Positions 15,791-26,474 of a stretch of 64,000 bases of DNA are shown in pieces; position 1 is the first letter of the stretch, and each line of letters begins with the position of its first letter. The notes under the pieces are model-generated. The model saw only the letters and a list, made by a program, of their open reading frames with translations. It had not been told where the DNA came from and ran no database searches. The translations under genes and the position numbers were made by a program. Origin of the DNA: Streptomyces dioscori (GTDB taxonomy: Bacteria; Actinomycetota; Actinomycetes; Streptomycetales; Streptomycetaceae); contig NZ_KZ679051.1 in assembly GCF_003024195.1 (NCBI RefSeq), positions 245,790 through 309,789 on the forward strand, read 5' to 3'.

Positions 15791-16912
15791 ATGGAGATTC
15801 TCTGGGTCCTGATAGCGCTGGTCATGATCGGATTCGTTGTCGGACCGATCGTGTCGCGCAGGCGTGCCGGTGGTATCCAGCAGGTCGCCCCCGGCGACCC
15901 GGACGCCGCGGACCCGGCGAACTACGGTTTCCTTCGGCAGGAGGAGCTGGACATCCGCATGCCCGGCCCCGACCAGGACCTGCTGGAGGTCCTCGACCTG
16001 GTGCAGCGCAGCCAGGACCACCGCGCCGCGTCGCAGCTCCTCGCCGGTACGGAGGCGGAGGGCGAGCGGCGCTGGCAGCGCGTCCAGGCCTTCGCGGGGG
16101 CCGCGTCGCTGGAACTGCAGCAGCGCCCCGGCGGGGTGAGCGACAACCCCGGCGGGCAGTGGCTGCGGGTGTGGCGGGCCGAGCAGCCCAAGGACGCGGG
16201 CGGCGCGGCGGTGCACGCGGAGTTCCTGGTGCAGCAGGCGTGGCGTACGTCGTCACCGGGGACGGACGAGTTCCGGATCATCATGGAGGAGGCGCGGTCG
16301 GCCTGCGGTGACGCGGCGCTGCTGGCTCCGGGCGACCCGATCCCGTACATCATCGAGCTCTCCGTGGCCCGCGGGCTCGCCTATTCGCAGCCGGAGTTCG
16401 AGAAGCTCTGGCTGAAGATCCTGGACCGGGATCCCGCGCACATGGGGGCGCATCTGGCGGCGCTGCACTACTGGTGCGAGAAGTGGCACGGCTCGCGGGA
16501 GACGGCCTACTCGTTCGCGGAGGCGGCCGCGGCGCGCGCTCCCCGGGGTTCCCTGCTCGCCGCCATGCCGCTCTTCGCGGTCTTCGAGCACCTTCCCGAG
16601 GTGAACCTCGTCAGCAGCTTCTACCAGAGCGAGGTCGTGACGAAGGCGGTCCACGGCGCGCTCTTCGCGGTCCACGCGGCCCGCCCGGACGACCCGATGC
16701 TCGCCCATGTCCGCCATCTGCTCGTCTTCTTCCTGGTACGCGGCGAGCGCTGGGCGGAGTCGATGAACCAGCTGGTGCATGTCGACGGCCACGTGGGCGC
16801 CCTGCCCTGGACCCTGACGCCCGACCCGGCGGCGGACTACGCGGTGTACCGGGCCCTGTCGGTGGCGGGCTACGAGGCGAACGGGGGGAGCCCGGCGACG
16901 CTGCCGCACTGA
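15791..16912 (+). CDS. Membrane-anchored helical-repeat protein of unknown function
   Basis: A 373-residue protein with a hydrophobic N-terminal segment (residues 3-21, ILWVLIALVMIGFVVGPIV) followed by a basic stop, so it is anchored with the bulk probably cytoplasmic. The remainder is alpha-helical with TPR-like spacing but no clear TPR consensus; a motif around LKILDRDPAHMGAHLAALHY stands out. The ATG at 15791 lacks a clear ribosome binding site. I do not recognise a named family. The gene is free-standing, with the metB-like gene divergent. Confidence 0.85.
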   Translation: MEILWVLIALVMIGFVVGPIVSRRRAGGIQQVAPGDPDAADPANYGFLRQEELDIRMPGPDQDLLEVLDLVQRSQDHRAASQLLAGTEAEGERRWQRVQAFAGAASLELQQRPGGVSDNPGGQWLRVWRAEQPKDAGGAAVHAEFLVQQAWRTSSPGTDEFRIIMEEARSACGDAALLAPGDPIPYIIELSVARGLAYSQPEFEKLWLKILDRDPAHMGAHLAALHYWCEKWHGSRETAYSFAEAAAARAPRGSLLAAMPLFAVFEHLPEVNLVSSFYQSEVVTKAVHGALFAVHAARPDDPMLAHVRHLLVFFLVRGERWAESMNQLVHVDGHVGALPWTLTPDPAADYAVYRALSVAGYEANGGSPATLPH

Positions 16913-17001
16913 GCGCGGCCCGGGCCCGCCCGAACTGGGGGGCTTTCCGCCCCGGCGAAAATGGGTGGCCGCCCGAACCGGCCGCCCCCACGCTGTACGC
17001 C

Positions 17002-17595
17002 ATGGAAGAACCGCAACACAGGATCCGCGCGGCGCACTCGGAATCCACGATCACCGTCTACCAGGCCTACTCCCCGGAGATCGGCCTGCCCGCCGTCCGC
17101 GACGGGCGTTTCCCGGCGATGTGGAAGCGGGACAGGATGACGTGGATCAAGCCGTCGTTCCTGTGGATGATGTACCGCTGTGGGTGGGGCGCCAAGGAAG
17201 GGCAGGAGGTCGTTCTCGCTGTCGAGATCGAGCGGGAGGGTTTCGAGTGGGCGCTGCGCCACGCCTGTCTGTCGGGTTACGCGCGCGGGGTCCACCCGGA
17301 TCGTGCCGCATGGCAGCGTCGGTTGAAGCGCGCGCCGACTCGTGTGCAGTGGGACCCCGAGCGGGACCTGCGCCTCCAGCCCCTGCCGTACCGGTCCCTG
17401 CAGCTCGGCCTCTCCGGTGAGGCCGCACGGCGTTACGCGGACGAGTGGACGGTCGCGATCCGCGACGTGACTCCGCTCGCCCGTGAGATCCACGCACTCG
17501 TCAGCGGCGGAGACCTCGACTCGGCGGCACGGCTGCTGCCCCAGGAGCGTCCCTACCCGGTCGGAGAGGAGCTTCTTGCCCAGCTGGGTGAGTGA
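17002..17595 (+). CDS. DUF4291 family protein
   Basis: A 197-residue cytoplasmic protein. The segments ITVYQAYSPEIG, MTWIKPSFLWMMYRCGW and VQWDPERD are the characteristic blocks of DUF4291, a widespread family without an established activity. The start ATG 17002 precedes the conserved N-terminal block by about 15 residues. It converges on msrA across a strong hairpin. Confidence 0.9.
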   Translation: MEEPQHRIRAAHSESTITVYQAYSPEIGLPAVRDGRFPAMWKRDRMTWIKPSFLWMMYRCGWGAKEGQEVVLAVEIEREGFEWALRHACLSGYARGVHPDRAAWQRRLKRAPTRVQWDPERDLRLQPLPYRSLQLGLSGEAARRYADEWTVAIRDVTPLAREIHALVSGGDLDSAARLLPQERPYPVGEELLAQLGE

Positions 17596-17641
17596 AGGGA
17601 ACGCTCGCCCGTCCCCACGAGGCCCCGCGTCCACGCGAACA

Positions 17642-17676
17642 GGCCCGTCGGTCACAGGTGGTGTGACCGACGGGCC
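17642..17676. terminator. Perfect 15-bp hairpin between DUF4291 and msrA
   Basis: GGCCCGTCGGTCACA and TGTGACCGACGGGCC form a perfect 15-bp stem with a 5-nt loop between two convergent stops (17595 and 17685), serving both strands. Confidence 0.85.
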
Positions 17677-17684
17677 CCTGGCGG

Positions 17685-18197
17685 TCAGCCTTCCGCGCGG
17701 GCCGGCAGGCGCCACCCCGGGCGGGGGAAGTGGCAGGTGTAGCCGTCCGGGTAACGCTGCAGGTAGTCCTGGTGCTCGGGCTCGGCCTCCCAGAAGGGGC
17801 CGACCGGCTCCACCTCGGTGACGACCTCGCCCGGCCACAGACCGGAGGCGTTCACGTCCGCGATCGTGTCCTCGGCGATCCGCTTCTGCTCGTCGTCCAC
17901 GTAGTAGATCGCCGAGCGGTAGCTGAGCCCCAGGTCGTTGCCCTGGCGGTTCTTGGTGCTCGGGTCGTGGATCTGGAAGAAGAACTCCAGGATCGTACGG
18001 AAATCGGTCCCCGCGGGGTCGAAAAGGATCTCGATGGCCTCCGCGTGCGTCCCGTGGTTACGGTACGTCGCGTTCGGCACGTCGCCCCCGGTGTATCCGA
18101 CCCGGGTCGCCGTCACGCCGGGGAGTCGGCGGATCAGGTCCTCCATCCCCCAGAAGCATCCGCCCGCCAGCACGGCCCTCTGTGTCTGCGCAACCAT
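17685..18197 (-). CDS. msrA: Peptide-methionine (S)-S-oxide reductase MsrA
   Basis: A 170-residue repair enzyme reducing methionine-S-sulfoxide. The nucleophilic Cys14 lies in GGCFWG. Other family blocks are [20 protein letters not shown] and [18 protein letters not shown]. Only one later cysteine (YTCHF, near the C-terminus) is available as resolving cysteine. The ATG at 18197 is preceded by GGAAGG at about 7 nt; the ATG at 18212 would place the ribosome binding site inside the gene. Confidence 0.96.
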
Positions 18198-18321
18198 TGC
18201 GGCCCCTTCCAAATGTCAGTCAGCTCGGTCACTCGGGCCGCTCGGCTCGCTCACCACCGGCTTCCATGCCCACTCCCCTCAACGCACGAGGGTTCCGGCC
18301 GATTCCGTACCCGGCCGAACG

Positions 18322-18362
18322 GGGGCAGGGACCCCCGGATGTCGTACGGGAGTCCCTGCCCC
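18322..18362 (-). terminator. Terminator of the DUF3455 gene
   Basis: GGGGCAGGGAC (18322-18332) pairs perfectly with GTCCCTGCCCC (18352-18362). It lies 62 bp beyond the DUF3455 stop codon on its strand. Confidence 0.6.
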
Positions 18363-18423
18363 TGTCCAGCCCCTCTTCAGCCCCTTTTCAGCTCTCAGCC
18401 TCAGTCGGCGCTGCTTCAGGCCG

Positions 18424-18975
18424 TCACGCGGTGGGCTTGTAGAAGGTGTACGTGGCGGAGTACGGGACGCCGACCTGCTCGGTGCCGGTGCAGGCGGCGG
18501 TGGGGGCCACGCCGCCGTCGGTGGCGAGGCGCTGGATGTAGGAGACGTCGGCGAAGACGCCGGCGCCGCGGGTGGCGGTGGACTTGAGCAGCAGCTCGGG
18601 GATGGTGCCGGTCTTGGGCGAGGTGGCGACGGCGGCGGCGTTCACGGCACTGCCGTCCACCGTGGACACCCAGACGGGTCCGCGGGAGTGCAGGGCCACC
18701 GGGCGGTGGTGGCGGTCGCCCTTCACCGACAGGGTGGCGGCGGGCTCCAGCAGCTTCCAGGCACCGTCGGTACAGGTGTACGTCTGGACGCCGGTGGCGG
18801 CGAAGACACCGGTGAGCCGGTTGCCGTCCGGGACCTTCAGCGCGTCGGGAACGCCGACGCCGACCCGTACGGGCTGCGAGACCGCGGCCTGGTCGGCCGA
18901 CGCGCCGGAGAGCGTGCCGGCGGTCACGGCGGCGAGTGCCGCGGTGGTGAGGACAAGTCGCTTGGCGAGCTTCAT
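18424..18975 (-). CDS. Secreted DUF3455 protein
   Basis: A 183-residue protein with a Sec signal peptide: MKLAKRL, a hydrophobic Ala/Thr/Leu core, and probable cleavage after SGASA near residue 27. The mature part is a small beta-rich domain with two cysteines (QTYTCTDG and TAACTG). GVFAATGVQTYTC and ADVSYIQRLAT match DUF3455, common in streptomycete and fungal secretomes and of unknown function. The ATG at 18975 has CTGGAGAC about 10 nt upstream; the upstream frame is low-complexity hexamer DNA, not protein. Confidence 0.85.
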   Translation of the reverse strand: MKLAKRLVLTTAALAAVTAGTLSGASADQAAVSQPVRVGVGVPDALKVPDGNRLTGVFAATGVQTYTCTDGAWKLLEPAATLSVKGDRHHRPVALHSRGPVWVSTVDGSAVNAAAVATSPKTGTIPELLLKSTATRGAGVFADVSYIQRLATDGGVAPTAACTGTEQVGVPYSATYTFYKPTA

Positions 18976-19339
18976 CGGATGCGTCTCCAGAGATCCAGAA
19001 AACCAGAAATGATGTCTGTACGAGGTCACGGGCGCGGGAGCGGCAGCGGGAGTGGCAGCGGACGGGCACGCGGATTCGGATGCGGGCGCGAACACGGCCG
19101 CCTGCACCGGCACGGGCACGGGCACCGGCACCGGCACCGCACGGACACCGACGCCGTTCCGCCGTGCGGGGACCATCGCCGGGGCGACGGCCCGGGCCGC
19201 CCAGCTGAGCGCGGGCGCGCAGCACGTGACGGAGCAAGGAGTATCACCGGCCCCGTACCGCCTGGCGAGGGCCTGGGGGGCATACGGCCGGTCACGTCAC
19301 GGCGGTCCCGGCGGACACCCCGCATGCCCCGTCACCTCC
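18976..19339. other. Intergenic region with GC-rich hexamer repeats, no gene
   Basis: About 360 bp between two minus-strand genes. Bases 19105-19140 are runs of GGCACG/GGCACC hexamers, and 19030-19065 has related GGCAGCGGGAGT units. No start codon with a ribosome binding site and no plausible codon bias is present on either strand. The promoter of the DUF3455 gene should lie at its lower end. Confidence 0.6.
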
Positions 19340-19984
19340 TCAAGAGACCTTGGGTATCGCGGAGTTGGGGTCCACGCCCGCGAACGCGAGACCTATGACG
19401 AAGCCCGCGACCTCCTCCAACTGGCGGACCCGGTCCAGCGACCCCAGAGTCGCCGGGGCTCCGCCGACGTCGCTCACCAGGTCGCCGACGACCCGCAGGG
19501 CCGCCGGCTCGTCGCCGCACATCGCCACGGTCGGACGGGGCCGGCCGTCGTCGGCGGGGGCCGTCCACAGTCCGGCGGGGAAGAGATGGAACGCCTTCAC
19601 CACATGAGCGCCCGGTGCGAGCCCGGCGATCCGCGTCGCCATCGACTCGCCGTGTCCGGTGAGCAGATCGCCGACACCGTGCGCGACGGCGTTCGTCGGG
19701 TCGATCAGGGGCGTGCCCGCGAGGACGCCCTCGGCCGCGCCCGCCAGTCCCAGCATGTCCTCGACGCCGTCCCACGACACGGCGAGGAGTACGGCGTCGC
19801 GGTCCGTGGCCGCCTCCCGCGGGGTGCCGGCGAACGCCCCCCGACCCAGGCGCCCCAACCGTCCGGCGAGCTTGTCCGCCTTGGCCTGCGACCGTCCGCC
19901 GATCCACACCTCGTGCCCCGCCCGGATCCAGCCCTCGCCCAGGGCCGCCGCCAGTGTTCCCGTTCCCAGGATCCCGATACGCAT
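19340..19984 (-). CDS. NADPH/F420-type dinucleotide-binding oxidoreductase
   Basis: A 214-residue Rossmann protein beginning MRIGILGTGTLA, which gives the GxGxxA dinucleotide loop, followed by IGGRS as the expected phosphate-recognition turn for NADP. The fold and length resemble NADPH:F420 oxidoreductases and related NAD(P)-binding proteins (KAFHLFPAGLW is similar to the KAFN segment of the family). The ATG at 19984 has GAGG about 8 nt upstream. It is divergent from an HxlR regulator, which probably controls it. Whether F420 is the partner cannot be decided here. Confidence 0.8.
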   Translation of the reverse strand: MRIGILGTGTLAAALGEGWIRAGHEVWIGGRSQAKADKLAGRLGRLGRGAFAGTPREAATDRDAVLLAVSWDGVEDMLGLAGAAEGVLAGTPLIDPTNAVAHGVGDLLTGHGESMATRIAGLAPGAHVVKAFHLFPAGLWTAPADDGRPRPTVAMCGDEPAALRVVGDLVSDVGGAPATLGSLDRVRQLEEVAGFVIGLAFAGVDPNSAIPKVS

Positions 19985-20120
19985 CGTCGCCGCCTCACAA
20001 ACCGCTGTCCGCTGCTGTCAGTTGCGTAGTCACGGTAGGGAGCCCGTCGCGCACCGATCGGTGCGCGACCGACGCGCGATGATGGCGGAGAGGGCCGGCG
20101 GAAAGGCGGGGGAAGCGGAC

Positions 20121-20582
20121 ATGGCCGACGACGACGCGCACTGCTACGAGCTGGTCGCCGACTGCCGGCTGCGTGCCGGCGCCGATCTGTTCGCGCACAC
20201 CTGGGACCCCGTCGTCCTGGCGGCCCTGCGCGCGGGACCGTGCCGGCGCCGTGATCTGCGGGCCGCGATCGGCGGCATCAGCGACAAGGTGCTGACCGAC
20301 ACACTGCGCCGCCTCCTCGCCAACGGTCTGATCGGCCGCCGGGCCCATGCCGAGGCGCCGCCGCGCGTCGAGTACGCCCTGACCGCGCTGGGGCGGAGCC
20401 TGGTCGAGGGCCCCATGACGGCGCTCGGCCGCTGGGTCACCGAGCACGGCGACGAACTCCTCGAAGCCCAGGAGGCTGGGGAAGCGGAGGGGGCTGTGGA
20501 AGCGGAGGCAGTCGAGGAGGCCGGGGAAGCCGAGGCAGCCGGGGAAGCCGGAGCAGCCGGAGCAGCCCGAAGGTCGCGGTAG
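20121..20582 (+). CDS. HxlR-family regulator with an Ala/Glu low-complexity tail
   Basis: A 153-residue winged-helix regulator. FAHTWDPVVLAALRAGP, DLRAAIGGISDKVLTDTL and RVEYALTALGRSL are the standard HxlR blocks. The ATG at 20121 has GGGGGAAG about 6 nt upstream; ATGs at 20080/20083 would add a segment without homology. After about residue 113 the protein ends in a 40-residue Glu/Ala/Gly tail coded by imperfect GAAGCxGxx repeats, unusual for the family. It is divergent from the oxidoreductase gene and its stop lies 9 bp from that of the convergent Mrr-TerD gene. Confidence 0.85.
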   Translation: MADDDAHCYELVADCRLRAGADLFAHTWDPVVLAALRAGPCRRRDLRAAIGGISDKVLTDTLRRLLANGLIGRRAHAEAPPRVEYALTALGRSLVEGPMTALGRWVTEHGDELLEAQEAGEAEGAVEAEAVEEAGEAEAAGEAGAAGAARRSR

Positions 20583-20591
20583 GTCGGCGGG

Positions 20592-22700
20592 TTACTCCAC
20601 CTCTATGCCGTGGTCCCGGACGAGTTCCGTCAGGCCCCCGGTGTAGCCCTTGCCGCCGAGGACGAAGTCCCAGTCGCCGCCCGCCCGTCGGCGGAAGGAG
20701 CCGAGCACCAGCGCGGTCTCGCGCGGTCGCCCGTCGGAGACCTCCAGCTGTCCCAGTTCGGACATCTCCGGGTCGAGCAGCCGGATACGGGCGTCGGTGA
20801 ACCCGGAGAGGTCGGCGTCCGGATCGGCCTCGGGGTCGACCGCGGCCACGAGGACGAACCGGTCCGCCCGCTCCGGCAGCCCGTCGAAGGACACGCAGAT
20901 CGCGGCCTTGTCGGACCCGGTGGCGGGCAGGGTGCGCACCGAACCGTCGGGCGTCCGCGGGTTGTTGAAGAAGACGAAGTGCTCGTCGCTGAGGACGCGG
21001 TTGCCGGCGCAGACGAGCGCGCACACGTCCAGGGCCACGTTCCCGGACCACGACATGCCGAGGACGTTGTAGTCGTCGGGCAGCCGGTCGCCGGTGTCCG
21101 GCGGCGCCCCCGCCGCCGCCGTGCTCGCCGCACCCGCCGACCGCGTGCCGCCACCGCTCACCCGGTCACCCGCCCGGTCGCCCTCCCCCAGCCGCCCCCG
21201 CAGCCCGTGCCGGTGCAGCAGGTCGACGAGCTGGGGGCCGGAGACGAGTTCCAGCGGTTTGCCGTTGGCGAAGGTGTGCGAGCCGGGGCCGAAGCCCGAA
21301 GTCGTCACCAGGACACCCTTGTTGGCCCCGGCGTCCTGCACGGTCCCGTACAGGTCTCGTACGGCGGTGGGCGGCACGGTGTTGCGGTACCGCTTGACCT
21401 GTACGACGATCTTGCCGCCCCGGATCGGTGCCGGGTCCAGCGCGTCGACGTCCACGCCGCCGTCGCCGGAGCGCTGGGTCGTCACCGCCTGCATCCCCAT
21501 GGCCCGGAAGAGTTCGGCGACGAGGTTCTCGAAGGCGATGGGGTCCATGGCGTACAGGTCGGGTTCCTCGTCGCCGCCGTGGGCGACGACACGGTTGCCG
21601 ACGTCCTGCGGCCGACGCCCCGTCCGTACCGGTGTGAGCTGGTCCGGCCGGGCCGAGAGCTGTCCCCGCAGCGCGTCGGACAGGCAGCTGCCCGCGTCCA
21701 CCTGTGCGAGGTGCAGGTCGCGGAACGACGAGCGGGAGGCCATGACGGTCGCGAGGAAGATCTGGCCCGGCCTGCCCGTGGTCGGGTCGTGTCCGTCCAC
21801 GAACCCGTTCAGGGTCACCGCTTCGAGTGCGCCCAGTTCATCCGCGGCGAAGAGTTCGTGCAGGACGAGCAGCATGCACTGCGCGAGAACGTCCCGGTAC
21901 AGCGCCCGCCGCCGGCTCACGGGCTGCGGGGTCTCCTTGTCCTGGTCGGTCCCGGCCACGTACCGGACGGATTTGACCTCGGGGACGATGCCGAAGCCGG
22001 GCAGCTCCCAGTCCAGCACCAGTTCCCGGGCCGCCGGGTCGTAGGCCGCCGCGACCTGGCGCGGCAGGTCCTCCGGCCACGCCGTCGAGGCGTAGAGAGC
22101 GGCGGAGAAATACTCGATCACCGCGTCGGGATCCAGCCGCCGGACGCCGTCGGTCACCTCGGCGACGCTCGCGTTGTGGCGGCGTACGTCGGCCAGCTGG
22201 GCGTCGGCCCACTGCTGGTACTGCCGCTGGTAGGCGGCCAGTTGCTGCTGCCGGTGCGCCTCGGCGGCCTGGGCGGCGTGCCAGTCGTGCTCGAAGCGCG
22301 CCCGGGCCTCGGCCTGCGCCTGGGCCCGGCGGTTCGCGGTCCAGCCGCTCTGCACCTGGTACCGGCCGGCGTCCGGCATGCGGACCGGCTGGGCCAGCGG
22401 TCCCGGCGCGAAGGGCTCGACCGCCTCGGGCCGCAGGAGCGAGGCGGCCCTGAAGGGAGGCGTCCGACAGCCTGCGGCGAGCAGGCCCTGCAACGAGGCG
22501 ACCTGCGCGTCCAGTTCGTCGGTACGGCGCTGTGCCTCGGCCTGCCGGTACTGGCGGTGGTTCTGGGCCGCTCGGCGCTGGTAGGCGAGCGTCTGCTGTT
22601 CCGCGCGCCTGCGCTGCCTGGCTTCGACTTCCAGCTGGCGCTGCTGCTGCCGTTGCACTTCAGCCCACACGCCGACAAAACCGGTAGAGCGACGAGACAT
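20592..22700 (-). CDS. Mrr-type nuclease fused to TerD domain
   Basis: A 702-residue three-part protein. Residues 1-180 are Gln/Arg/Ala-rich and strongly coiled-coil. Residues about 180-380 are a globular region without recognised relatives. Residues about 385-505 form an Mrr_cat/PD-(D/E)xK nuclease domain with GDGGVD (Asp417) and QVK (434-436), the metal-binding and catalytic pattern. After a Gly/Ala linker, residues about 538-702 are a TerD domain (FVFFNNP, RIRLLDPEMSELGQLEV, ETALVLGSFRRR). Its early Asp-rich calcium site is partly altered (ALDVCALV rather than DLDxS). The ATG at 22700 has GGGGAGGG about 8 nt upstream. The gene stands alone, with no TerA/TerC or methylase nearby. A role in DNA processing or phage/stress defence is inferred from the domains. 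Confidence 0.85.
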   Translation of the reverse strand: MSRRSTGFVGVWAEVQRQQQRQLEVEARQRRRAEQQTLAYQRRAAQNHRQYRQAEAQRRTDELDAQVASLQGLLAAGCRTPPFRAASLLRPEAVEPFAPGPLAQPVRMPDAGRYQVQSGWTANRRAQAQAEARARFEHDWHAAQAAEAHRQQQLAAYQRQYQQWADAQLADVRRHNASVAEVTDGVRRLDPDAVIEYFSAALYASTAWPEDLPRQVAAAYDPAARELVLDWELPGFGIVPEVKSVRYVAGTDQDKETPQPVSRRRALYRDVLAQCMLLVLHELFAADELGALEAVTLNGFVDGHDPTTGRPGQIFLATVMASRSSFRDLHLAQVDAGSCLSDALRGQLSARPDQLTPVRTGRRPQDVGNRVVAHGGDEEPDLYAMDPIAFENLVAELFRAMGMQAVTTQRSGDGGVDVDALDPAPIRGGKIVVQVKRYRNTVPPTAVRDLYGTVQDAGANKGVLVTTSGFGPGSHTFANGKPLELVSGPQLVDLLHRHGLRGRLGEGDRAGDRVSGGGTRSAGAASTAAAGAPPDTGDRLPDDYNVLGMSWSGNVALDVCALVCAGNRVLSDEHFVFFNNPRTPDGSVRTLPATGSDKAAICVSFDGLPERADRFVLVAAVDPEADPDADLSGFTDARIRLLDPEMSELGQLEVSDGRPRETALVLGSFRRRAGGDWDFVLGGKGYTGGLTELVRDHGIEVE

Positions 22701-22774
22701 GCGCTGCAGGCCCTCCCCAGGACACAGGACAATGGCAGCCGAAAAGCACATCGTAGGCGTGCCGGCTGCCCCGC

Positions 22775-23164
22775 CTACTCCCGCGTCCCGCTTCCGTAGG
22801 GCCGGGTGAGGATCTCCAGGCTGTGGCCGTTCGGGTCCTCGAAGTACGTGCCGCGACCGCCGTCGTTCGTGTTGATCTCGCTGACACGGCGGTGGTACGG
22901 GTCCGCCCAGTAGGTGAGACCCGCGTCCTGGACACGGGCGAAGATCGTGTCGAAGTCGTCCTCGGAGACCAGGAAGGCGTAGTGCTGGGGCGGGATGGAG
23001 CCGACGGCGTCCATGTAGTCGAGGGTCACCCCGTTCGGGATCCGCACGGGGATGAAGGGCCCGTACGCGGGACTCACCTCCAGGCCCAGGATGTCGGCGA
23101 GAAAGCGGGCGGACGTCTTCTTGTCATGGGCGGCGACGATCGTATGGTTCAGCTCGACGGTCAT
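22775..23164 (-). CDS. VOC-family (glyoxalase/bleomycin-resistance) protein
   Basis: A 129-residue vicinal-oxygen-chelate protein with two beta-alpha-beta-beta-beta modules. Candidate metal ligands are His8 (ELNHTIV), a mid-protein histidine (QHYAFLV) and the C-terminal glutamate in GHSLEILTRP. The ATG at 23164 has a perfect GGAGG about 8 nt upstream. The substrate is unknown; it may be a dioxygenase, a lyase or a binding protein. It is downstream of the alcohol dehydrogenase gene on the same strand, separated by repeat DNA. Confidence 0.88.
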   Translation of the reverse strand: MTVELNHTIVAAHDKKTSARFLADILGLEVSPAYGPFIPVRIPNGVTLDYMDAVGSIPPQHYAFLVSEDDFDTIFARVQDAGLTYWADPYHRRVSEINTNDGGRGTYFEDPNGHSLEILTRPYGSGTRE

Positions 23165-23318
23165 CGTACGGACCTCCTCGGTTCGCCGGCTGCTCGGCAC
23201 GTTCCATGCTCCCGTACACATCAACGCCGGGGCCCGTACCTGTACGACAGTGCCCCCACCGGAATATCCCGATGGGGGCACATAGGGGCGCGGAGAACAG
23301 CGCAGTCTCTTGCTTTTA

Positions 23319-23360
23319 GGGGCGCGGGGAACTGCGCGACCAGCCACAGCGGACCCGCAG
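23319..23360 (+). repeat. Dispersed repeat family 1 copy
   Basis: The core GCGCGGGGAACTGCGCG is followed by a CAGCCAC...CCCGCAG tail, identical in layout to the other family members in this window. A decayed copy (GCGCGGAGAACAGCGCAG) lies at 23287-23304 just upstream. It sits between the adh stop and the VOC start. Confidence 0.85.
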
Positions 23361-23382
23361 AGGACAACGCACCCCAGCGGAG

Positions 23383-24423
23383 CTAGATCGTGGCCGCGTC
23401 GATCACGAACCGGTACCGCACATCACTCGCGAGCACCCGCTCGTACGCCTCGTTGATCTCAGCCGCAGAGATCAGCTCGATCTCCGCCCCGAACCCGTGC
23501 TCCGCACAGAAGTCCAGCATCTCCTGCGTCTCCCGAATCCCCCCGATCCCGGACCCCGCAAGCGTCTTGCGCCCACCGATCACGGAGAACAGGTTCAGGG
23601 AAACAGGCTCCTCGGGCGCGCCCACGTTCACGAACGCGCCGTCGGTCCGCAGCAGCGACAGGAACTTGTCCAGGTCCAGCGGAGCGGAAACGGTCGAGAG
23701 GATCAGATCGAACGACCCCCGCAGCTCCTCGAAGGTCTGCGGGTCACTGGTCGCGTAGTAGTGGTCGGCGCCCAGCTTCAGCCCGTCGTCCTTCTTGCGG
23801 AGCGACTGCGAGAGCACGGTCACCTCGGCGCCGAGCGCGTGCGCGATCTTGACGCCCATGTGCCCGAGGCCGCCCATGCCGAGGATCGCGACCTTCTTGC
23901 CGGGCCCGGCGTTCCAGTGCTTGAGCGGGGAGTACGTGGTGATGCCGGCGCACAGCAGCGGCGCGGCCTCGTCCAGGGCGATGCCTTCGGGGATACGGAC
24001 GGTGAAGGCCTCGTCGACCACGATGTGGGTCGAGTAGCCGCCGTAGGTGTTCTCGCCGCTGCGGTCGACGGCGTTGTACGTGCCGGTGTTGCCCTCGACG
24101 CAGTACTGCTCAAGGCCGGCCTTGCAGTTCTCGCACTCGCGGCAGGAGTCGACCATGCAGCCGACACCGACGCGGTCGCCGACGGCGAACTTGGTGACAC
24201 CGGAGCCGACCTCGGTGACGACACCGGCGATCTCGTGCCCGGGGACCATCGGGAAGATGGCCTCGCCCCAGCCCTCACGGGCCTGATGGATGTCGGAGTG
24301 ACAGATGCCGGCGAACTTGATCTCGATGAGGACGTCCTGCTCGCCGACCGGGCGACGCTCGATGGTGGTGCGCTCCAGCGGAGCCTTGGCGGCGGGGGCG
24401 GCGTATGCGGCGACAGTGGTCAT
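23383..24423 (-). CDS. Zinc-dependent alcohol dehydrogenase (class III-like, NAD(P))
   Basis: A 346-residue medium-chain dehydrogenase. The catalytic zinc ligands are in GICHSD and PGHE, with a third cysteine near residue 150. A structural-zinc cluster CxxCxxCxxxxxxxC is in the region of [16 protein letters not shown]. The Rossmann loop is [11 protein letters not shown]. The overall pattern matches the cinnamyl-alcohol/AdhC-type branch that often uses NADP. The ATG at 24423 has AGGAG about 9 nt upstream. It is divergent from an XRE/MmyB regulator gene, a pairing typical of streptomycetes in which the regulator controls the dehydrogenase. Confidence 0.92.
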
Positions 24424-24594
24424 GCGGAGGGTTCTCCTAAGGAGTGGATCCGTGCCCGGCCTGCCTTCCGGCCGGGTACGGCGTCCAGCCTGCCCCCTTT
24501 GCCGTCCTTCACCCAGACCACGGTGTTTCGTACGTCCACTGGTCCTACTACTGGCGGGGGCAGGCTCGTATGCGTACGACCGTGTAGCAGCGTG

Positions 24595-24600
24595 AATACT
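24595..24600 (+). promoter_or_regulatory. -10 element of the MmyB-type regulator, leaderless
   Basis: AATACT ends 6 nt before the ATG at 24607, so transcription should start at or next to the A of the start codon. No Shine-Dalgarno is present. Confidence 0.55.
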
Positions 24601-24606
24601 GGACGT

Positions 24607-25536
24607 ATGGACGAACAGGCCTCTCAGGAGCCCACCGGCGGGACCGGACAGGAGCCGGGACGGCCGCTGGACCGGCGCGCCGAGCTCAGCGAGTTCCTGC
24701 GCACCCGCCGGGCCCGGCTGAAGCCGGAGGACGTGGGGCTGCCGGACTTCGGGCGGCACCGCCGGGTGCCGGGGCTGCGCCGCGAGGAGCTGGCGCAGCT
24801 GGCCGGGGTGTCCGTGGCGTACTACACCCGCCTTGAGCAGGGCAACGGCCGGAACGTGTCGGCGGAGGTGCTCGACGCGATCGCGCGCGCCCTGCGGCTG
24901 AGCGGCGCCGAGCACGCGCATCTGACGCATCTCGCGAAGCCCAAGCAGCACAAGAAGAAGGTGTCGGCCCGGCCGCAGCAGGTGCGGGTGGCGATGCGGC
25001 AGCTGATCGACACGTTCGACAGTGTGCCCGCGTACGTCGTGGGGCGGCGCTCGGACATCCTCGTGTGGAACCGGATGAGCGCGGCGGTCTTCGGGGACTG
25101 GGCCCAGCTGCCGGCGCAGGAGCGGAACTGGGCGCGGATGGTGTTCCTGCGGCCCGAGTACCGCGAGCTGTTCGTGGAGTGGGAACAGAAGGCGTCCGAC
25201 ATGGTGAGTTTTCTGCGGATGGACGCGGGGTGCCATCCGGACGATCCGCGGTTGTCGGCTCTCGTCGGGGAGCTGTCCGTGAAGAGCGAGGAGTTCCGGC
25301 GGCTCTGGGCGACGCATGACGTCAAGGAGAAGAGTCATGGGGTGAAGCGGCTGCATCACCCTCTGGTGGGTGAGCTGACGCTCTCCTTCGAGACGTTCAA
25401 GCTCGTCGACGACGAGGAGCTGTCGATGGTGACGTATCACCCGGAGCCGGGGTCCGCCTCTGCCGAGGCGCTGCGCTTGCTCGCGAGCTGGGGTACGGAC
25501 GCGGTGCGGGCGGGCACGTCGGCGCCGAGGCAATAG
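24607..25536 (+). CDS. XRE-family HTH regulator with MmyB-like ligand domain
   Basis: A 309-residue regulator. The HTH lies at about residues 57-80 ([21 protein letters not shown]), preceded by the conserved RRVPGLR. Residues about 125-300 match the MmyB-like domain thought to bind a small ligand such as a fatty acid ([41 protein letters not shown]). The family typically represses or activates the neighbouring short- or medium-chain dehydrogenase; here the adh gene is divergent with a 183-bp shared promoter region. The transcript appears leaderless. Confidence 0.92.
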
Positions 25537-25576
25537 CCTTTTCCCTCGCCCCCGCCGCCCCTACCCGTCCCGTCCC

Positions 25577-25683
25577 GCACTCAGGGGCTCCGCCCCCGAA
25601 CCCCCGCTCCTCAAACGCCGGAGAGGCTGAAAACCTCCTAGGGGCGCGGGGAACTGCGCGGCCGGCCCCCACCGGACCCGCAG
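25577..25683. repeat. Repeat cluster: family 2 unit plus family 1 copy
   Basis: Between two convergent stops. 25583-25600 is a small GGGGCTCCGCCCC palindrome. 25609-25634 is a family 2 unit (CTCAAACGCCGGAGAGGCTG), and 25641-25683 is a family 1 copy with the GCGCGGGGAACTGCGCG core. Confidence 0.8.
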
Positions 25684-25697
25684 CCGGAATCGCCCCC

Positions 25698-26474
25698 TCA
25701 GGCCCCGGCCCGGTACGGCGGAGCCGAACCCCAGGACCATTGCGGGACCGGCTGCTCGGCCGGCGGTGTCGCGTCCGGGCCTGAGAAGTACACGGCCAAC
25801 CGCGTCCCCCACTCCGCGTAAGCGAGAAACGCGGACCGGAACTCCGCGTCCGAAGGCAGCCCCGCCTCGTCCGCCGCGTCCTGCAGCAGGTTCACCCACC
25901 GCCGCCGCTGCACCTCGGTGATCCCCTTCCCCAGGTGCTTGGCGACCATGTGTCCGTGCCCTCCCTGCGTCTCGGAGTACACGGGCGGCCCCCCGAAGAC
26001 CTCCCCGAACCAGGAGGCCACATGCGCCGCGTGCTCGGCGGCGAGCCCTTCGAAGACGGGGGCCAGGACGTCGTCCTTGAGGACCTTGTCGTAGAACACC
26101 TCGGTGAGGCGCGCGAAGGCTTCGGTACCCCCGGCCCAGGCGAACAGCGTGGGCACGGCCGCCCCCGTCCCCCGTACCGTCGTCGGCTTGTAGTGGCGTG
26201 TCTCCTCCACGAACCCGGTGAAGGGGCCGATCTCGGCGACGAAGTCGGTGAACAGCTCGGACTCGCGGAACCCCTCGACATGGTCCTCGGTGGACGTCCA
26301 GGTGATCCGGAGCACGTAGTGCTGGAAGTCCTCCTCGCTGCGGGCCAGCTCGTAGTCGACGCACTGCGGGGCCGCCGCGAGGTGCGAGGCGGCCCGGGAG
26401 TACGCGGCGAGGAACAGCGCCGACTGCTCCTCGGGGATGAGGTACCTGATGTATTCAACGGTGTGCGCGGTCAT
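25698..26474 (-). CDS. Antibiotic-monooxygenase domain fused to group II truncated hemoglobin
   Basis: A 258-residue fusion. Residues about 1-100 form an ABM-like ferredoxin fold (EYIRYLIPEE through HYVLRITW), the fold of heme-degrading and quinone-forming monooxygenases. Residues about 108-235 are a group II trHb: Tyr128 at B10 (VFYDK), proximal His180 (MVAKHLGKGI), Trp193 at G8 (RRRWVNLL) and the GGPPVY turn. Such a chimera has been described from S. avermitilis; its physiological role is unsettled, with oxygen/NO chemistry or oxidation of a small aromatic plausible. The ATG at 26474 follows GGGGGAGGAC. It is cytoplasmic, with no signal peptide. Confidence 0.9.
   Translation of the reverse strand: MTAHTVEYIRYLIPEEQSALFLAAYSRAASHLAAAPQCVDYELARSEEDFQHYVLRITWTSTEDHVEGFRESELFTDFVAEIGPFTGFVEETRHYKPTTVRGTGAAVPTLFAWAGGTEAFARLTEVFYDKVLKDDVLAPVFEGLAAEHAAHVASWFGEVFGGPPVYSETQGGHGHMVAKHLGKGITEVQRRRWVNLLQDAADEAGLPSDAEFRSAFLAYAEWGTRLAVYFSGPDATPPAEQPVPQWSWGSAPPYRAGA

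Follow-up and report, generated by a model that had tools for sequence, protein, structure and literature searches.

Why should a Streptomyces gene join a Mrr-type nuclease to a TerD domain in a single chain, and what could the resulting protein do? The question is raised by an open reading frame in a stretch of 64,000 nt from Streptomyces dioscori (GCF_003024195.1, NZ_KZ679051.1, positions 245,790-309,789 of the forward strand). This whole stretch is referred to as the window, and positions given without a locus label are counted within it.

Overall architecture

The start of the gene was placed at 22700 because its relatives conserve MSRRSxGLVGVWAE as their N-terminus. A longer in-frame start at 22751 (719 aa) was ruled out, since the homologues begin at MSRRS. 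The resulting features are:

20592..22700, minus strand: coding sequence of the N-module-Mrr-TerD fusion, 702 aa (open reading frame; start backed by the conserved MSRRS)
22641..22700, minus strand: N-terminal motif MSRRSxGLVGVWAEAQRQQQ, residues 1-20 (conserved among homologues)
22488..22685, minus strand: long helix or coiled coil, residues 6-71 (AlphaFold2 model)
22140..22337, minus strand: second long helix, residues 122-187 (AlphaFold2 model)
21666..22139, minus strand: middle α/β domain, residues 188-345, approximate limits (AlphaFold2 prediction for residues 184-374, pLDDT 93)
21189..21587, minus strand: Mrr PD-(D/E)xK nuclease domain, residues 372-504 (Pfam, fold comparison, conservation, dN/dS)
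21450..21452, minus strand: predicted catalytic Asp417 (invariant in 80/80 homologues)
21393..21401, minus strand: predicted catalytic Q434-V435-K436 (invariant in 80/80 homologues)
21072..21188, minus strand: variable, mostly disordered linker, residues 505-543 (AlphaFold2; mean column identity 27%)
20595..21071, minus strand: TerD domain, residues 544-702, lacking the canonical GDNxTGEGxGDDE loop (Pfam, fold, loop alignment)

The AlphaFold2 model of the 702-aa protein, calculated with 80 homologues as input, reached a pLDDT of 86 and a pTM of 0.56, the latter leaving the relative placement of the domains unsure. It comprises two long helices (residues 6-71 and 122-187), an α/β domain (residues ~188-345), the nuclease domain (372-504), a disordered segment (508-538) and the TerD domain (545-696). 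Pfam, the model and the homologues thus confirm the fusion of a coiled-coil N-terminus, a PD-(D/E)xK nuclease and a TerD domain described in the sequence-only reading. That reading had overlooked the middle α/β domain between coil and nuclease. We refer to the coiled coil and the middle domain together as the N-module.

The middle domain has no Pfam match. Its best PDB match (Z = 6.7) lies within the noise, with none at Z ≥ 8, which by itself does not establish a new fold. The N-terminus of the protein is conserved, basic-aromatic and amphipathic. A simple hydropathy scan of the 702 residues predicted no transmembrane helix (maximum 19-residue value 1.49).

Nuclease domain

Residues 383-495 match Mrr_cat far above the curated cut-off of Pfam (E = 1.5e-31, 109 bits). 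A structure comparison of the predicted domain with the PDB gave AF1548 (Z = 13.2), AspBHI (Z = 12.3) and MspJI (Z = 12.0). The lack of a PD-(D/E)xK fold in structure models had been named beforehand as the observation that would speak against the assignment; the fold was predicted, with Z-scores of 12-13.2. The proposed catalytic set of Asp417 and QVK also held, as D417, Q434 and K436 are invariant in the 80 full-length homologues, together with D413, G414 and G415.

The Mrr domain is the most conserved part of the fusion. Invariant columns among the 80 homologues number 70/133 in Mrr, 55/159 in TerD and 0/39 in the linker. Median pairwise dN/dS values of close pairs were 0.066 for Mrr, 0.117 for the middle domain, 0.124 for TerD, 0.130 for the N-terminus and 0.315 for the linker. 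These ratios indicate purifying selection on all domains, and a catalytically dead enzyme or a passenger role of TerD is therefore unlikely.

TerD domain

Pfam assigns residues 553-697 to TerD (E = 7.6e-23, 81 bits against a cut-off of 25.3), and a superposition of the predicted domain with 3ibz resulted in a Z-score of 18.5 and an r.m.s.d. of 3.0 over 156 residues. The domain shares the fold of the TerD family (3ibz, 2kxt). It differs from the family in a shortened N-terminus, in its fusion to a nuclease, in the lack of ter neighbours and in the loss of the acidic loop GDNxTGEGxGDDE, which is replaced by a short LPATGSDKAA. The loop is also missing in the other Mrr-linked TerD domains that we compared. 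In TerD proteins the acidic loop is associated with Ca2+ binding, and the entry 2kxt carries a calcium-binding study as its title. The analogy to Ter proteins drawn from the sequence accordingly carries over only in part: it extends to fold and profile, but not to the acidic loop or the ter neighbours.

Relatives of the fusion

The PADLOC model mREase_IV (PDLC03663) stands for putative type IV enzymes composed of a coiled coil, a middle domain and Mrr_cat. It covers residues 16-498 of the fusion (E = 4e-56), which is homologous over this range and has the same domain order, but adds the TerD domain. A full-length member without TerD is present in the same genome (L123, G000:C8:315433-316920). 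This paralogue fits PDLC03663 end to end (1131 bits) and is about 33% identical to the fusion; it lies ~16 kb from a cluster of stand-alone TerD genes (G000:C8:332710-337471). Further TerD-less relatives, ~40% identical over residues 170-488, are found on proteobacterial plasmids, from Methylobacterium, Agrobacterium and Xanthomonas. On a Pseudochrobactrum plasmid, an N-module-Mrr gene (L176:6338-9492) is placed between genes for a LexA-type regulator and tcmP/DUF5131, near recT, a setting that suggests a prophage-like or defence cassette.

Mrr and TerD are combined in three architectures: the N-module-Mrr-TerD fusion, a short Mrr-TerD protein of 335-358 aa that lacks the N-module (found in relatives within the same family, flanked by ordinary genes) and a reverse-order TerD-linker-Mrr protein (~450 aa, in another actinobacterial family, the single family covered by that search). 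The latter two are encoded at:

L124:1755-2831, L125:2388-3395, L130:1686-2762: short Mrr-TerD
L171:985-2337, L186, L187 (family f18, genus g80): reverse-order TerD-linker-Mrr

In a tree of the Mrr domains, the reverse-order group forms a separate clade (support 100/99), and TerD-less N-module-Mrr proteins lie between it and the clade of the fusion. The simplest reading would be two separate Mrr-TerD couplings, some of the intermediate branches being weak.

Distribution and genomic context

Among 199 sampled Streptomyces species, about 65 have a full-length copy that is essentially unbroken, and the number of carriers rises to 74 when split, truncated or frameshifted copies are included. Homologues reach other genera of the Streptomycetaceae. 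At least four genomes (L163-L166) retain just the TerD end as a decayed remnant. Nearly full-length copies were also found in three plasmid records, among them a linear Streptomyces plasmid of 790 kb on which transposases lie close by. Phage records contained stand-alone TerD or Mrr matches only, and none had the fusion.

The neighbourhoods of 81 loci fall into 18 groups, and chromosomal sites are unrelated between clades. Within some clades the site is stable, for example next to parC in 18 genomes. Strict clustering with housekeeping genes, which would have spoken against a defence role, was thus not seen. Across these groups no neighbour recurs as a conserved partner, whether defence, ter or methylase gene. 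A survey of 146 neighbours at 20 representative loci yielded no recurrent DNA methylase, and generic methyltransferase folds occurred in 2 among the 25 families listed. An operon with a neighbour was also rejected: the gap to a co-directional upstream gene is never below 60 nt, and a co-directional gene follows within 60 nt in 3/78 loci. PADLOC matches among neighbours elsewhere include MADS, IetA and SspH besides others, each in small raw numbers.

In the window the gene is surrounded by a glyoxalase-fold protein, an alcohol dehydrogenase, an HxlR regulator, an F420-type oxidoreductase and MsrA. Among its near neighbours there is no ter gene, DNA methylase or recognised defence gene, and terZABCEF-type genes, as in the Ter operon system, were not found next to it. 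The lack of the usual ter partners and of a methylase had been read correctly from the sequence. The region 15791-26474, which separates the metB flank from the alcohol dehydrogenase/globin flank, looks variable, as relatives sharing both flanks hold different genes in it. A DUF4291 protein (17002-17595; Pfam E = 1e-74) is encoded near the fusion, with no relation seen between the two.

The gene is accessory and mobile, because it is patchy in Streptomyces, is found at scattered sites, on plasmids and as remnants, and has no constant partner, though in the window it lies outside a classic defence island.

The N-module accompanies a second nuclease

A number of homologues consist of the N-module only (coiled coil and middle domain, ~420 aa, no Mrr or TerD). 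They match the N-terminal part of PDLC03663 with an E-value of 9e-37 and are ~28-30% identical to the N-module of the fusion. At 13 of the 15 N-only loci examined, a DUF4041-GIY-YIG gene lies directly downstream on the same strand. Four of these partners were scanned and match PADLOC PD-Lambda-1, with E-values down to 1e-103. The two exceptions are a locus where a transposase adjoins the gene (L212/L238) and one where the gene resembles a truncated N-module-Mrr protein (L233/L239). Nearly all other N-module homologues examined from that search have Mrr in cis, and no SNIPE-like neighbour was present beside them in the flanking DNA examined. The paired loci, which span several actinobacterial families, include:

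L126:1501-4370, L127:1220-3858, L128:1710-4366, L140:1974-4633: N-module and DUF4041-GIY-YIG, two genes
L207:5338-7958, L208-L211, L213-L215: further loci of the same kind

PD-lambda-1 has been renamed SNIPE, described in the main text of its report as an experimentally proven, membrane-bound anti-phage nuclease that cleaves the phage DNA as it is injected (PMC13190303). According to the same text, homologues without a transmembrane helix often have other membrane-targeting N-terminal regions, for example DivIVA-like ones (PMC13190303). Term searches of that main text turned up neither Mrr nor a neighbouring partner gene (PMC13190303). In our set, a simple hydropathy scan of the SNIPE-like partner proteins found no transmembrane helix, and the pair of genes possibly represents a two-protein form of SNIPE.

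The N-modules associated with SNIPE-like genes begin with MGRRRGFFAELxYQxQQ, which resembles the MSRRSxGLVGVWAEAQRQQQ of the fusion, and in both cases the motif precedes the coiled coil. In the pair found on a plasmid from Kocuria, the genes overlap by 1 base and are adjoined by HEPN and DUF262 genes. The SNIPE-like partner encoded there (L207:6585-7958) starts with proline/tryptophan-rich repeats (PPPGW) rather than a transmembrane helix.

Comparison of the loci shows that one N-module is exchanged between two nucleases, Mrr in cis and a SNIPE-family enzyme in trans, the latter in other Actinobacteria. Because 13/15 N-only loci pair it with a SNIPE-family gene, we regard the N-module as a nuclease-associated defence module. 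The fusion resembles SNIPE in that an adaptor region is paired with a nuclease, and actinobacterial relatives of SNIPE share their two-gene loci with a homologue of its N-module. It differs in that its nuclease is Mrr in cis, in the lack of DUF4041 and GIY-YIG (Pfam) and of a predicted transmembrane helix, and in the added TerD domain.

Proposed function and alternatives

Based on the domain models and the comparison of loci, we lean towards the fusion being a single-gene, portable antiviral DNase that would be guided by its N-module and tethered additionally by TerD. The intact Mrr PD-(D/E)xK active site and the strong purifying selection on it predict a working nuclease. The N-module would oligomerise and place the nuclease on its target, which could be a feature of the incoming phage DNA, for example a modification, or the place in the membrane where injection occurs. 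The Mrr domain would then cut the DNA. Since its acidic loop is gone, we read TerD as a tether to proteins or membrane complexes or as a regulator, rather than as a Ca2+ sensor; the tether role is a guess.

The anti-phage activity is inferred. Support for the stand-alone defence role suggested earlier is indirect: it comes from the PADLOC type IV model, from the accessory and mobile spread and, above all, from the pairing of the N-module with SNIPE-family genes. Several points run against it. The neighbours in the window are metabolic and regulatory and do not form a defence island. The N-only modules appear as rather distant relatives at the identities given above. Persistence at one locus within clades, as at parC, could also be explained by a domesticated role in the cell.

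The protein may instead be a conventional type IV enzyme that depends on DNA modification, which we consider quite possible though less likely: N-terminal and middle domains would read the modification, Mrr would cut and TerD would be dispensable. Such an enzyme would agree with the mREase_IV match, the intact D...QxK set of Mrr_cat and the lack of a cognate methylase at the locus. The closest catalytic folds include the modification-dependent MspJI and AspBHI (Z about 12), and Streptomyces is known for systems of this type, including ScoA3Mrr (PMC3874153). The accessory domains of MspJI and AspBHI are different, however, and the middle domain shows no clear match to their DNA-reading domains or to other known modification readers. 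We also looked for incompatibility with 5mC methylases of the host and saw no signal: PF00145 enzymes occur in 48/74 carriers and 76/125 non-carriers (p = 0.65), a weak counter-argument, as the specificity may be narrow. HsdM-type N6 methylases are uninformative because they are present in 169/199 genomes, and dnd, found in 3 genomes, none of them carriers, is too rare to judge. In addition, the N-module is paired elsewhere with a GIY-YIG enzyme, and the known relative of that enzyme distinguishes its targets by location and not by modification.

There is also a tentative variant that we think rather improbable. The N-module may be a portable adaptor that brings defence nucleases, SNIPE-type GIY-YIG enzymes in trans and Mrr enzymes in cis, to the membrane or injection site, and the fusion a location-guided, modification-independent "Mrr-SNIPE" with TerD as a second tether to Ter or membrane complexes.

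It is unlikely that the protein is an effector through which the cell's own Ter network responds to stress or DNA damage, with TerD recruiting the nuclease to Ter complexes that process chromosomal DNA. The host genome does contain 17 TerD-domain matches including the fusion, and Ter proteins have been tied computationally to DNA processing (Anantharaman 2012, as cited in PMC3710099 and PMC11090510). Yet the gene is missing from ~2/3 of Streptomyces, scattered, plasmid-borne and decayed in several genomes, ter genes do not adjoin it, and its TerD is divergent. The earlier suggestion of a DNA-damage effector found no support.

That the protein is a sensor which binds DNA or nucleotides and has no nuclease activity, like the inactive-REase family NA-iREase1, is highly improbable: this family also matches the nuclease domain above its Pfam cut-off, but with 41 bits against 109 for Mrr_cat, and the catalytic set is invariant.

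Relation to known systems and implications

Coiled-coil nuclease tandems (CoCoNuTs) are presented in PMC11090510 as type IV-like systems often accompanied by TerY-P modules. The fusion shares with them the combination of coiled coil, nuclease and a Ter-linked component. It differs in being a single gene, in having TerD instead of TerY-P and in lacking HEPN; a McrB-type GTPase and a CnuH helicase are absent from the protein (Pfam) and from its near neighbours in the window.

The individual domains are known, and N-module-Mrr proteins are already catalogued as putative type IV enzymes. As far as the literature shows, two things appear to be new: the TerD-bearing variant with its reverse-order counterpart, an earlier mention of Mrr-TerD fusions being possible, and the finding that Mrr and SNIPE-family nucleases share an exchangeable N-module.

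The fusion ties together three subjects that are mostly considered separately: the putative type IV Mrr enzymes, the proteins of the Ter family and SNIPE, the recently described nuclease of the injection site. Recurrent coupling of Mrr and TerD, in both orders, makes the function of TerD addressable in a single enzyme. The association of one N-module with Mrr in cis and with SNIPE-family nucleases in trans suggests that some enzymes classed as modification-dependent restriction may recognise foreign DNA by other means.
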